From Cohnella laeviribosi DSM 21336 (GTDB lineage: Bacteria; Bacillota; Bacilli; Paenibacillales; Paenibacillaceae), in contig NZ_KB899817.1 of assembly GCF_000378425.1 (NCBI RefSeq), positions 62,001 through 126,000 on the forward strand: a stretch of DNA of 64,000 bases, read 5' to 3'. Position numbers and translations under genes: made by a program. The notes beneath the pieces are model-generated. The model made no database searches and was not told where the DNA came from. It saw only the letters and a list, made by a program, of their open reading frames with translations. Every line of letters starts with the position of its first letter. Position 1 is the first letter of the stretch. Shown here piece after piece: positions 17,273 to 25,194 of this stretch.

Positions 17273-17683
17273 CTATTTTTTTTCGTCGAAATAGTACGAA
17301 ATCCCCGGGTCCTTTCCCATATGATAATAAGACTGCATGATCTTGATCTGATCCCGGGTTTGGCGAAGCTCCGTCCCCACGGACGAGTACTGCTGCCGAA
17401 TGATTTCCGTGCTCATTCGATTCGCTTCGAGGGCCTGTTCTGCCAAAGATTGAATATGCTCGCGGCATATTTCCTGAAATCGCTCGACTCCGACGAGCGA
17501 TTTCAAACGTTCTCCATCCTCCGTCGCGAGGCGTTGCCGCTGATCCCATTGACTGGCGAGCTCCGCAAAGTCGTCCCAGTCCACATCCGTCTGCTGCAGC
17601 AGACGATGCTGATCGCGGGCGATTTGAAGAAGCTTCGCATAATGCTCTTCCCACTCCCGGATCAATGATTGCAGCTCAGCCAT
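17273..17683 (-). CDS. fliT: FliT-like flagellar export chaperone
   Basis: A 136-residue, almost wholly helical acidic protein encoded after fliS, the position of fliT (FliD chaperone) in Bacillus. The N-terminal part (LQSLIREWEEHYAKLLQIARDQ) and the pattern of heptads through residue 120 fit the four-helix FliT family. Sequence identity in this family is low, so the call is mainly by length, fold pattern and position. It overlaps the fliS stop by eight bases, implying coupled translation. No clear terminator separates it from the hag promoter, so some read-through into hag is possible. Confidence 0.75.
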   Translation of the reverse strand: MAELQSLIREWEEHYAKLLQIARDQHRLLQQTDVDWDDFAELASQWDQRQRLATEDGERLKSLVGVERFQEICREHIQSLAEQALEANRMSTEIIRQQYSSVGTELRQTRDQIKIMQSYYHMGKDPGISYYFDEKK

Positions 17684-18065
17684 GTCCGACCGAAACCTCC
17701 CGGCCGATCTGATCCCAGGCGGACTTGATCTCTCTCAGCAGATCCGCCACTTCGGCGAGAGGCTCTTTTTGTTTTTTCACATTTGCCTGCACCAGACGAT
17801 TCAGCATATACAAATAGAGGCTTTTCAGGTTAGACGCAATGGCCCCGCCTTGTTCCTCGTTCAAGCAGGCCAACAGCTCGGAGACAATATCCTGAGCCCG
17901 CACAATCCGTTGATGCGCTTGGCCTAAGTCGCCGTTGTCCAACGACGTTATGGCTCCGGTCAGATTTTGAATGGCGCCTTCATAAAGCATTTGGATCAGC
18001 CGGTGAGGCGAGGCCGTTTCATATTTGTTTCTGCGATAAGTTTGATACCCCGTCTGATTGATCAA
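17676..18065 (-). CDS. fliS: Flagellin export chaperone FliS
   Basis: Binds the C-terminal D0 of flagellin, keeping it unfolded for export; in Bacillota it also releases FliW from Hag. The 129 residues include the conserved YRRNKYETASPHRLIQMLYEGA and the ALSYINKDLL-like LYLYMLNRLVQAN region. The start is TTG (18065) with AAGGAG eight bases upstream; no ATG or GTG fits. It follows fliD by 30 bp and overlaps fliT. Confidence 0.96.
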   Translation of the reverse strand: MINQTGYQTYRRNKYETASPHRLIQMLYEGAIQNLTGAITSLDNGDLGQAHQRIVRAQDIVSELLACLNEEQGGAIASNLKSLYLYMLNRLVQANVKKQKEPLAEVADLLREIKSAWDQIGREVSVGHG

Positions 18066-18095
18066 AGTTTTCGCTCCTTACCCTAAAATAAATGA

Positions 18096-19571
18096 CTACG
18101 AATTTTTCGAGTACATTGCGGAAACGACGCCATTCATCCAGCTTTGCTGGCTTTGAAGCGTTGAAAGGGCCGTTTCCATTTGGGCAAACTTTTGTTTCAG
18201 CGCAGCTTCCTTGACGTCCAGACGAATTTGCATTTGTTCCATTTGATCGGTTATAAACGAAATTTCGGAATCATAGCCTTCGATTTTCGTTTTTAGAATG
18301 CCGTTTGAAGCACTGGACCAATTAAACAAGTTGTCGCTAAAAACGCGCGCGATCCCTTTCGATGTATCGGCTTCGTCATTGGCCAACAGCTTGTAAACGG
18401 CATCCGGGTCTTTTTTTAGAGCTTCGATGAACTTGTTTTTATCAAAAGACATCTTGCCCGTCATTTCGCTGGCCGACGTAGCCCCTTTATCGACTTCCAG
18501 ACCGATTTGGAATAAGTACTTCAGACTAAGATCGGATTTCCCGTCGGCTTTCGTACCCGCCTGAAGATTGACCCAGTTCCCCAGACTGGACAGAAGACTA
18601 TTTAATGTGGAATCGGCCGAAAGCGGGGTCCGATAATTGGAATCCGTAAACGACTTGGCCGAATTCACTGCATCAATAACGGCATTATAGGCATCGACAA
18701 AGGCGGATATCAAGCCTGCGACAGCTTCCGTATCGGTATCGACGGACACGGTTGTGGTGCCCGGCGCAACCAAAGAAAAGGAGACGTTCTCAATGACGCC
18801 TGCGACCGTATTGCTGCTGGAAGTGACAGTGACGCCGTTCACCGTAAAGTTTGCATCCGCCGCCTCTTGAACAACATTCTTTAGATTATTGCCAGCATCC
18901 ACTAATCCCAGCTTCTGCAAAGCAATGGAATCTCCGGTTATGCCATATGCCCCGGATCCTACTTTAATCGAATTTCCCGCGCCCGTATTTTTAGATGACA
19001 AAACGAGACTGACTTCAGTATCGCTTGTCTGCAAAAGGGATGCTGTCAAGTTGGCGCTGCCGGCATTAATCGCATTTTTAAGACTCGTCAAAAAGTCCTT
19101 ATCCGTGGCAGCGTCCGCAGCAAGTTGGCCCACATTAATCGTAACGTCATCGATCGTAATCGTCGCATCCGAGGCGATTCCGGCTTTCACGCTCGTACCG
19201 CTGCTGTTGACCGAATCCGTCCGAATAATGTGGTTTTGCGCAATATTGTTCACGACCACTTGATACGTTCCCTTAGCTGCGCCGGCTGAGCTAGAGACGT
19301 TCAGCACCTTCGTATCCGAACTGGTCGCCGCCGTCTTGGTCAGGTTGGACATGTACAGCAAATCGCTCGCCGCCGTACGCAGCGCGCTTACTTTCGTGTT
19401 CAAGGTGCGGAACAGCGACTGGATTTTGCCGTAATCGTTCTTGCGATTTTCCAAGGTGGTATAATTGGTTTTGTCGGAAGCCATTAAAGCCGAAATCAAC
19501 GTGTCCGTATCCAATTTGGAGAACAAGCCCGTCAAAGAAACCGAACTGGTGTTGACGCTGCTGACTGCCAT
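18096..19571 (-). CDS. fliD: Flagellar filament cap protein FliD (HAP2)
   Basis: Caps the filament tip and promotes flagellin folding. 491 residues. The FliD N-terminal domain (about 1-110) opens SLTGLFSKLDTDTLISALMASDK; the C-terminal domain (about 240-485) has LISAFVDAYNAVIDAVNSAKSF, PLSADSTLNSLLSSL, MSFDKNKFIEALKKDPDAVYKLL and a long terminal coiled coil. The middle (110-240) is the variable outer domain, Thr/Ser-rich. The ATG has a GAGG ribosome site. It sits between flaG and fliS in the standard order. Confidence 0.97.
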   Translation of the reverse strand: MAVSSVNTSSVSLTGLFSKLDTDTLISALMASDKTNYTTLENRKNDYGKIQSLFRTLNTKVSALRTAASDLLYMSNLTKTAATSSDTKVLNVSSSAGAAKGTYQVVVNNIAQNHIIRTDSVNSSGTSVKAGIASDATITIDDVTINVGQLAADAATDKDFLTSLKNAINAGSANLTASLLQTSDTEVSLVLSSKNTGAGNSIKVGSGAYGITGDSIALQKLGLVDAGNNLKNVVQEAADANFTVNGVTVTSSSNTVAGVIENVSFSLVAPGTTTVSVDTDTEAVAGLISAFVDAYNAVIDAVNSAKSFTDSNYRTPLSADSTLNSLLSSLGNWVNLQAGTKADGKSDLSLKYLFQIGLEVDKGATSASEMTGKMSFDKNKFIEALKKDPDAVYKLLANDEADTSKGIARVFSDNLFNWSSASNGILKTKIEGYDSEISFITDQMEQMQIRLDVKEAALKQKFAQMETALSTLQSQQSWMNGVVSAMYSKNS

Positions 19572-19604
19572 CTAGATTACCTCCTCTTTTGACCCTGACG
19601 GATC

Positions 19605-20000
19605 TTACAATTTCTTATCCATGAACAAGCCGATCATGTCCCGCATCTTAATGGACAAATCGATCAGGAATTCCGGCGGCATGCTCGCCACCACCTCTTG
19701 CGATTCTAAGTCGATCACTTCGACATAGGTTTGTTTGGCTTCTTCGTTATACCGGAAGCGGATTTGCTTCTCATAGGGTACCAGCGATTCGTTTACCTTT
19801 TTGAGTTCTTTTTCCAAACGTTCCTTGTCTTCATCCGAAAGGCTTTTGAAATCGAACTTGTTTTCCTTTTTGTTGTCGACAGTCCAATCTTCGCCCTGTT
19901 TTTTGGCGCTTTCGATCGATTTGAACGTTTCCTGGGATGCGGATCTGGCTGTATGCAGTTCGAAAGCGGAAATTCCATCTGCCGGTTGAACCCCGCTCAT
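19605..20000 (-). CDS. flaG: FlaG family protein
   Basis: The 131 residues have a low-complexity charged N-terminal half (about 25-85, predicted helical) and the compact FlaG domain at the C-terminus (IRFRYNEEAKQTYVEVIDLESQEVVASMPPEFLIDL). FlaG homologues influence filament length or are of unknown role. The ATG has AGGTGGG six bases upstream. Placed between csrA and fliD, equivalent to B. subtilis yvyC. Confidence 0.93.
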   Translation of the reverse strand: MSGVQPADGISAFELHTARSASQETFKSIESAKKQGEDWTVDNKKENKFDFKSLSDEDKERLEKELKKVNESLVPYEKQIRFRYNEEAKQTYVEVIDLESQEVVASMPPEFLIDLSIKMRDMIGLFMDKKL

Positions 20001-20011
20001 GTAGATCCCAC

Positions 20012-20260
20012 CTAATCCTTTTTATTGAATTTGTCGAACTTTTCCAAAAAGTGAATCAGTTGCTGGCCTTGTACGGCCGGTTGCCCCGCGAGCATATTTT
20101 CCTGACGGATGCTTTCGTACAATTCCTTGCGCAAAATCTGAACGTTGGCAGGAGCCGTGAATCCAAGCTTGACCGTCTCGCCTTCGACGGCCAAAACCTG
20201 CACCTCGATCTGATCCCCCAGCTTCACGATCTCTCCCACTTTTCGTTTAAGAACCAGCAT
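20012..20260 (-). CDS. csrA: Carbon storage regulator CsrA, translational repressor of hag
   Basis: RNA-binding dimer that blocks flagellin translation until FliW sequesters it. The 82 residues carry the canonical MLVLKRKVGEIVKLGD start and the RNA-binding LGFTAPANVQILRKELYE. The tail (55-82) is longer than in E. coli CsrA, as usual in Bacillota where the extension binds FliW. It begins 14 bases inside the fliW gene, so the two are translationally coupled. Confidence 0.98.
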   Translation of the reverse strand: MLVLKRKVGEIVKLGDQIEVQVLAVEGETVKLGFTAPANVQILRKELYESIRQENMLAGQPAVQGQQLIHFLEKFDKFNKKD

Positions 20261-24303: not shown

Positions 24304-24576
24304 TCATTGTCCCCTCAGAAACGGAAGCAGCTTCTCGGCGATTTTGCCTGCGTCCAAATAGTACGTTCCGGAGGAAACCTCCTTCTTCAGCATCTCGATC
24401 CGCTTGGCGCGGTCGATCTCTTTCAGGTTCCCTTGCGCTCCCAACAATTCTTTCGCTTCTTCGGAGATCTGCACCTCGTCCTTGCGGCTTCCTCCCGAAG
24501 CGCTGCGGGTACGGGCGTCGTAGGTCGTATGATAATGGTTGAACAACGCAATGCGCTGCGATTCGTTGACTTTCAA
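24304..24576 (-). CDS. flgM: Anti-sigma-D factor FlgM
   Basis: Holds sigma-D inactive until the hook-basal body is complete and FlgM is exported. The 90 residues carry the disordered N-terminus and the C-terminal FlgM helices (RKDEVQISEEAKELL, DRAKRIEMLKKEVSSGTYYLDAGKIAEKLL). The start is taken as TTG at 24576, five bases after GAGGTGA, giving MKVNESQ as in other FlgM. The GTG three codons earlier is part of the ribosome site. It has its own sigma-D promoter, overlapping a terminator. Confidence 0.93.
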   Translation of the reverse strand: MKVNESQRIALFNHYHTTYDARTRSASGGSRKDEVQISEEAKELLGAQGNLKEIDRAKRIEMLKKEVSSGTYYLDAGKIAEKLLPFLRGQ

Positions 24577-24602
24577 ATCGATCACCTCAAGTGCGGATCC
24601 GA

Positions 24603-24641
24603 AAAATAAAAAAACCGATAATCTTATAGAAGTATTATCGG
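24603..24641 (-). terminator. Intrinsic terminator after yvyF, overlapping the flgM promoter
   Basis: Minus strand CCGATAAT (24641-24634), 11-base loop, ATTATCGG (24622-24615), followed by TTTTTTTATTTTT. It can stop transcripts arriving from yvyF. Transcripts that start at the overlapping sigma-D promoter begin inside the loop and lack the 5' arm, so they should escape. Confidence 0.75.
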
Positions 24642-24661
24642 TTGGGCATTCTTAAATTTTA
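24635..24661 (-). promoter_or_regulatory. Sigma-D promoter of flgM
   Basis: Minus strand TAAA (24661-24658), exactly 15 bp, ACCGATAA (24642-24635): perfect -35 and 7/8 of GCCGATAA. The predicted start, about 24628, is 50 nt before the flgM start codon. Its -10 is also the 5' arm of the terminator at 24603-24641. Confidence 0.85.
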
Positions 24662-24708: not shown

Positions 24709-25122
24709 TCAGCGGTCTTTGGGCCAGTTGTTGATCTGGTAGGCGCTCTCGGATCGTGCATGATCGCTCTGGCGGTCCGACGATTTCCCCTCGCTGGCCA
24801 GGCGAACCTGTTTGCTCAGTCGGGTCCGGCAGTTATCACACATATTCCCTTCCCGAATCAGCACGCCGCATACTTCACACGGATAGGACATGTTCGGAGC
24901 GTTGTAAAGCGATATGCGCCCTTCCTTGATGAACTTGGTAATCTGCCTGATCGTGACTCCCGTCGCATCGGACAATTCCGTGATCGTGGCGCCTCTATGT
25001 TTGCGCAGATATTCTGCGCAAGCCTCGTATTCTTTCTCAATGACCTTTACGCAGCTGGGACATATATCTCGAAAATGGCGGGCAAACAATTTTCCGCAGC
25101 GGGGGCAATTCGCCAGTTCCAT
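24709..25122 (-). CDS. yvyF: YvyF/TIGR03826 flagellar-operon zinc protein
   Basis: 137 residues with two zinc-type Cys clusters: CPRCGKLF...CPSC near the N-terminus and CEVCG...CDNC around residues 82-99. Between them lies a small helix-turn-helix-like segment (TITELSDATGVTIRQITKFIKEGRIS). A regulatory role is often assumed but unproven. The start ATG at 25122 has GGAGGGG eight bases upstream. A longer frame to 25182 has no ribosome site and is not conserved in type. Between comFC and flgM as in B. subtilis. Confidence 0.9.
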   Translation of the reverse strand: MELANCPRCGKLFARHFRDICPSCVKVIEKEYEACAEYLRKHRGATITELSDATGVTIRQITKFIKEGRISLYNAPNMSYPCEVCGVLIREGNMCDNCRTRLSKQVRLASEGKSSDRQSDHARSESAYQINNWPKDR

Positions 25123-25194
25123 TTCAATGACCCCTCCAGTCTCGGCGACAGCGACGCGATCGCATAGGCCACCTCTCGACAATGCTTATACTAA

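Follow-up and report, generated by a model that had tools for sequence, protein, structure and literature searches.

A sigma-D promoter of flgM overlaps a terminator-like hairpin in Cohnella laeviribosi and related Bacilli

The window, i.e., the whole stretch of Cohnella laeviribosi DSM 21336 DNA that was analysed, is 64,000 nucleotides long, and the element described here lies on its minus strand in the gap between yvyF and flgM. The genes on that strand are arranged in the order comF-like gene, yvyF, flgM, a gene without a family match, flgK, and flgL. The best named relatives of YvyF are from Cohnella, followed by Paenibacillus, with identities of at most 68%. Judging by eye from relatives, a TTG at 24576 is a likelier start codon for flgM than the listed GTG at 24585; GAGGTGA precedes flgM in many relatives too. 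Elsewhere in the window (17600-20060, minus strand), csrA is followed by flaG-, fliD-, and fliS-like genes recognised by eye; no flagellin gene was seen by eye in this interval, in contrast to the gene order of B. subtilis. The features of the locus are as follows.

24709..25182, minus strand: yvyF, the upstream gene, start codon uncertain (TIGR03826, 137.9 bits; cut-off 124.15)
24658..24661, minus strand: sigma-D -35, TAAA (sequence; family consensus CTATAAA in alignment A3)
24635..24642, minus strand: sigma-D -10, ACCGATAA (sequence; CCGATA does not vary among the 46 rows chosen for A3)
24634..24643, minus strand: 5' stem arm AACCGATAAT, with the -10 inside it (RNA fold and covariation)
24623..24633, minus strand: bulged A, inner stem CTT/AAG, and loop CTAT, with a start-like A at 24627 (fold and conserved A)
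24613..24622, minus strand: 3' stem arm ATTATCGGTT (RNA fold and covariation)
24602..24614, minus strand: T-tract TTTTTTTATTTTT, the first two T of which are also paired in the stem (sequence)
24583..24588, minus strand: likely ribosome-binding site GAGGTG (by eye)
24304..24576, minus strand: flgM, the anti-sigma-D gene (TIGR03824, 41.7 bits; cut-off 40.75; scan from 24585)

Promoters of sigma-D (sigma-28) have the consensus TAAA, about 15 bases, and GCCGATAA. Upstream of flgM, a 15-base spacer separates TAAA (24661-24658) from the -10, ACCGATAA (24642-24635), which matches this consensus at 7 of 8 positions; the -35 and the spacer fit as well. The initial annotation had described this as a sigma-D promoter whose -10 has a downstream reverse complement followed by a T-run, and the coordinates, the fold, and shuffled sequences confirm it: CCGATAAT (24641-24634) is separated by 11 bases from its exact reverse complement ATTATCGG (24622-24615), with the T-tract TTTTTTTATTTTT (24614-24602) directly behind. 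With the inner CTT/AAG pairs included, the stem has 13 bp, one bulged A, and a 4-nt loop; four pairs are G-C, three of them near the stem base, and the remainder are A-U. The -10 is contained entirely in the hairpin (24643-24613), i.e., terminator and promoter share bases. The same -10 also doubles as a weak sigma-A -10 (TTAAAA-N17-GATAAT, 9 of 12 positions; window 24662-24634, minus strand).

The 52-nt fold has an energy of -11.7 kcal/mol (z -3.3; 1 of 200 shuffles equally good) and the bare element -11.2 kcal/mol; in a 131-nt stretch, the same hairpin has a z of just -1.27. Dinucleotide shuffling of the downstream 52 nt produced an exact 8-nt complement plus T-run in 17 of 20,000 trials, and across the 4.48-Mb genome the exact pattern has a single match, compared to zero for the reversed-pattern control. 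The overlap of promoter and hairpin at flgM is thus real and not due to chance. Both the fold and the intrinsic-terminator scan place a stable stem directly against the T-tract, as in intrinsic terminators; the flgM hairpin is absent from the list that a simple terminator scanner returned for the window. Because the stem is only of moderate strength (-11 to -12 kcal/mol), termination may be partial. A known RNA family was rejected, since an Rfam search of the element gave none above the gathering score.

The yvyF-flgM gaps that were compared come from the genus (36 of its 37 genomes), from a search of 118 family genomes, which included 12 genomes of the genus, from 70 other class genomes, and from 80 named loci. 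The 70 class genomes were picked from the 179 of 250 genomes with a yvyF match, as 30 best-scoring loci and 40 regions chosen to spread over families. Promoters were called on sequence alone; ten loci without flgM by profile, one locus without a promoter call (L254), and duplicate gap sequences were excluded before counting. The caller placed a promoter in all 36 genus gaps and in all but one of the 105 distinct family gaps (104); in the remaining one (L159), the profile gave no flgM, yet the covariance model described below matched its genome (G052).

By the intrinsic-terminator scan, a hairpin with the -10 in its 5' arm is present in all 36 genus gaps, 86 of the 104 family gaps outside the genus (87 with L131 added by eye), 58 of 59 named gaps, and 20 of 59 class gaps (22 with L238 and L251 added by eye); in these three added loci, the promoter caller had picked the wrong site. 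Shuffled class gaps gave a terminator-like site of any kind in 56 of 590 trials. A test based on the minimum-energy fold found the overlap in 31 of 36 genus, 92 of 104 family, 55 of 59 named, and 18 of 59 class gaps, versus mean shuffle fractions of 0.076, 0.036, 0.048, and 0.024, respectively; in L019 and L026, the minimum-energy fold preferred other structures. Outside the family, the overlap occurs in 23 genomes from 11 other families of Bacilli, including G188 (L239), which was entered via the same site in L198, and some of these Bacilli have different -10 sequences with 3' arms that match accordingly. The tightest arrangement is that of L021 (G006), where the gap is 70 nt long and the -35 TAAA begins with the yvyF stop codon TAA, so that stop codon, promoter, terminator, and start site are packed into about 70 bases. 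Collectively, comparison rather than experiment supports the interpretation of the element, which is deeply conserved.

An alignment of related yvyF-flgM gaps had been suggested as a check for covariation of the two arms. Across 95 aligned gaps, the ten stem pairs are present in 88.4% of cells, and double-sided changes fill 81 cells versus 16.0 in shuffles, a count that comes from rows chosen for CCGAT pairing; slid controls on the same alignment were far lower, and G-U pairs occupy three stem positions in 16 to 26 of the 95 rows. The CCGAT pairs of alignment A2 are biased because its rows were selected for pairing (family rows with at least four CCGAT bases paired, and 20 class rows picked for a stem and T-run). 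We also carried out an unselected test, in which the 3' arm was located by TCGG alone. Here, 190 of 192 family gaps have a pair between the base preceding CCGAT and the one that follows TCGG, against an average of 160.7 and a highest value of 172 in shuffles; the combinations are A-T (64), G-T (38), G-C (88), T-T (2), and A-C (0). All of these covariation counts are raised by relatedness. Covariation is borne out by this result, and the pattern that would have spoken against the initial interpretation, conservation of the -10 but not of the 3' arm, is reversed in most gaps: the 3' arm is kept and tracks changes around the -10.

Beyond the family, pairing of the base before CCGAT is seen in 19 of 22 gaps, a level also reached by 138 of 2000 shuffles and hence not above them, and the inner two -10 positions are paired in 14 and 18 of 22 gaps, compared to 8.5 and 9.6 in shuffles; inside the family, these inner positions vary too little for a covariation test. 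The variant -10 sequences CCGATGAT, CCGATTAC, and CCGATACA are each accompanied by a fitting 3' arm. On the YvyF tree, the A/G label before CCGAT changes 20 times, and an independent-pairs test of this base against the 3' end gave seven pairs on starred branches, with 2.8 going the same way and 0 the opposite way, too few for significance.

The loop of the hairpin contains a conserved A. Counted from the first C of the -10, an A stands at +14 in 96% of the 199 family gaps, those of the genus among them, and in 91% of 23 hairpin-free class gaps, i.e., those of 39 that lie within the promoter-score limits. The retention of this A in hairpin-free gaps makes it the likely start site of flgM (24627 in the window). 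The first 17 nt of an RNA begun at 24627 are predicted to be free of structure, and, because the start-like A sits in the loop, RNA from the flgM promoter would lack the 5' arm, in line with the earlier proposal that transcription begins within the loop.

To what extent the overlap is specific to flgM was examined at several depths. A covariance model built on 46 gaps, partly from genomes that were later searched, matched 49 of 59 family genomes at one site each, just downstream of yvyF (E at most 0.02), and its matches elsewhere in the 59 genomes had E values of at least 0.17; the flgM matches are expected, because the model was partly built from the searched genomes, and the result lies in the absence of a second strong site. 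The promoter pattern has 21 matches in the C. laeviribosi genome versus 18 in the control; flgM is the only one of the 21 in which all five CCGAT bases are paired and, by eye, a T-run follows, and the other promoters were rejected as overlaps. Exact-pattern matches in the genus number 31, in 26 of 37 genomes (control 2). Eight of the 31 lie away from flgM, and every one was inspected: L057 has a hairpin and a T-run, with no flagellar gene seen; those besides L047 and L057 were dismissed as chance-like. At L047 (G012, from 1501), the sigma-D-like promoter of a fliD-like gene is followed, after the -10, by an inverted copy and no T-run.

At the level of the phylum, the model found 35 places in 249 genomes, and 14 of the 35 (five family flgM sites and nine others) were inspected. 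Among these 14, one further flgM overlap outside the class was found (L406 in G587, minus strand 1560-1490), where yvyF- and comF-like genes could be recognised by eye on the upstream side. Matches were obtained in 243 of 299 genomes, and 71 phylum flgM upstream regions (30 best loci, 40 picked ones, and L406) were compiled, of which the program flagged four; by eye, L406 is a clear overlap and L454 a possible one, and L423 and L446 were rejected.

Seventeen of the 104 family gaps have the promoter without hairpin and T-run, namely those of 7 of 8 g5 genomes, 5 of 10 g8 genomes, and 3 of 3 g9 genomes, plus L166 and L174. In g9 (L069, L078, and L125) and in L174, a separate terminator-like hairpin lies upstream of the promoter. 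In L166 and in the named locus L292, the stem is retained with a poor T-tract. The five g8 gaps each have a terminator-like match downstream of the promoter, which we take as weak chance matches. In g5, the terminator scan found neither the overlap hairpin nor a separate terminator in seven of eight genomes (L124, L136, L137, L145, L153, L162, and L165); L163 retains the overlap. Five of the seven (L124, L145, L153, L162, and L165) have a near-consensus sigma-A promoter, TTGACA-N16-TATAAA, whose -10 coincides with the sigma-D -35; the score of this promoter is not attained in any of 181 hairpin gaps, and five of them fall one short. The loss of the hairpin in g5, which is one lineage, fits a terminator role, because RNA from the sigma-A promoter would carry both arms there.

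In the class sample, the majority of gaps have the promoter without the hairpin. Of the 37 class gaps that lack the overlap, 12 have a separate terminator-like hairpin upstream, a sign that stopping upstream RNA ahead of flgM is frequently called for. The gap of L209 (G176) shows another type of overlap, in which the terminator-like hairpin holds the -35 and the T-run falls in the promoter spacer.

Four gaps (L199-L202), which look B. subtilis-like by their FlgM, share the comF-flgM neighbourhood and also have a sigma-D-like promoter; unlike the overlap described here, they have no overlapping or upstream terminator by the scan (a weak partial match in L199). In B. subtilis, high ComK is reported to drive read-through from comF into flgM, thereby lowering motility (Liu and Zuber 1998, as cited in PMC4793158). 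A strong ComK (PF06338 at E <1e-20) was found in 26 of 80 genomes, and a weak one in a few others. Among 75 tabulated gaps, 33 have the overlap without strong ComK, 26 have strong ComK without the overlap, 16 have neither, and 0 have both; weaker ComK matches (E 2.9e-6 to 8.7e-4) occur in three genomes with the overlap (G175, G190, and G250), and in two of the three the match exceeds the family cut-off. On the YvyF tree, two changes are counted for the ComK label and nine for that of the overlap. The contrast is clear in the counts but is essentially one split of this tree and is not used as independent evidence.

From the anatomy, conservation, covariation, flgM specificity, and loop A that were observed, we infer termination, the start site, and insulation. 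One element would do two jobs, serving as a terminator for upstream RNA and as the sigma-D promoter of flgM, a reading to which we assign a probability of roughly three in four and which agrees with the initial annotation in light of conservation, covariation, and the loop A. When polymerase arrives from comF and yvyF, the transcribed -10 would pair with the downstream arm, and the resulting hairpin and U-tract would stop it before flgM. To sigma-D polymerase, the -10 would be read only as DNA; the transcript would start in the loop, lack the 5' arm, form no hairpin, and continue into flgM. The flgM operon would then be made mainly when sigma-D is active, and the FlgM/sigma-D feedback would be shielded from transcription of the upstream competence operon.

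The overlap might instead merely save space by joining the end of yvyF to the start of flgM, with the GC-rich sigma-D -10 suiting the stem base and insulation not being selected. Very short gaps such as the 70 nt of L021, with the yvyF stop inside the -35, speak for this account, as does the lack of a second strong case by pattern and model in the C. laeviribosi genome or the 59 family genomes. However, 40 of the 50 family gaps longer than 150 nt (genus included) retain the overlap, at lengths of up to 533 nt, and non-overlap class gaps carry a separate terminator in 12 of 37 cases, compared to a terminator-like site of any kind in 56 of 590 shuffled class gaps; we consider economy of space an unlikely explanation. 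It is more improbable still that the hairpin is conditional, with a protein or ribosomes near the yvyF stop codon regulating read-through and letting a share of the upstream RNA into flgM in certain conditions: the moderate stem and the varying distance to that stop codon would allow it, but no Rfam family scored above the gathering threshold. In attenuators and terminator riboswitches, a terminator hairpin likewise lies just upstream of a gene, and the gene's own leader RNA carries both arms. In contrast, the RNA of flgM would carry the 3' arm only, the 5' arm lying upstream of the probable start; provided that the start is in the loop, and with no Rfam family found, this type of control was rejected.

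A hairpin that only labels the yvyF message at its 3' end or stabilises it there, by processing or protection from decay, with little termination, seems very improbable; terminators can stabilise upstream messages (PMC11696848), but the T-tract directly after the stem is conserved (in the nine bases after TCGG, a median of 7 T, and at least five in 182 of 192 family gaps). We give almost no credence to the inverted repeat as a DNA feature, either a palindromic operator or an opposite-strand sigma-D promoter. CCGATAAT and ATTATCGG do form a palindromic pair, but the G-U pairs and bulges preserve RNA pairing while breaking a DNA palindrome, and a -35 for an opposite-strand promoter (offset 14-17) is found in 1 of 192 gaps, for which reason that candidate was rejected. 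A terminator acting at the RNA level is favoured because of the G-U pairs, the adjoining T-tract, and the probable start inside the loop.

A comparable arrangement is that of tufB-secE in Salmonella, where the terminator of the upstream operon overlaps the next promoter (Brandis, Cao and Hughes 2019, as described in PMC7055797), as at flgM; in that description, the overlap matters for expression and fitness and holds the neighbouring operons together (PMC7055797). Compared with tufB-secE as described there, the flgM element differs in that it relies on the alternative sigma factor sigma-D, has the -10 itself as its 5' arm, precedes a gene for an anti-sigma factor, and shows covariation of its arms in several families. 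In E. coli K-12, a sigma-28-like promoter can likewise be read by eye in the flgA-flgM gap, directly upstream of flgM, and no complementary arm with a T-tract was seen by eye after its -10. The initial annotation knew of no description of the overlap. This holds for flgM as far as the titles and opening lines of abstracts in the open-access literature go, a weak negative since subscription papers lie mostly outside it, and no description of a flgM overlap was found in passages of PMC5540618, PMC7446863, PMC12596718, PMC8546547, and PMC8046335; it does not hold for terminator-promoter overlaps in general, given tufB-secE. The kind of element is therefore known, and its sigma-D/flgM form is new relative to the literature so covered.

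If the dual role is real, it would suggest that sigma-28 -10 boxes, whose first bases are GC-rich, lend themselves to such double use. Going further, we tentatively propose, at somewhat less than even odds, that the element is a self-insulating promoter maintained by compensatory change across much of the Bacilli, which would make FlgM almost wholly sigma-D-dependent, and that hairpin loss would open flgM to upstream or sigma-A input, as in the ComK clade and g5. Under this proposal, one hairpin would determine whether motility feedback runs as a closed loop or is linked to other programmes, deciding whether an anti-sigma factor responds to its own sigma factor alone or to upstream genes too, and its presence would be readable from sequence across the Bacilli. 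If true, the element would offer a compact part to both stop and start transcription, a handle on how FlgM feedback depends on read-through, and a natural contrast to the coupling of competence and motility reported in B. subtilis.
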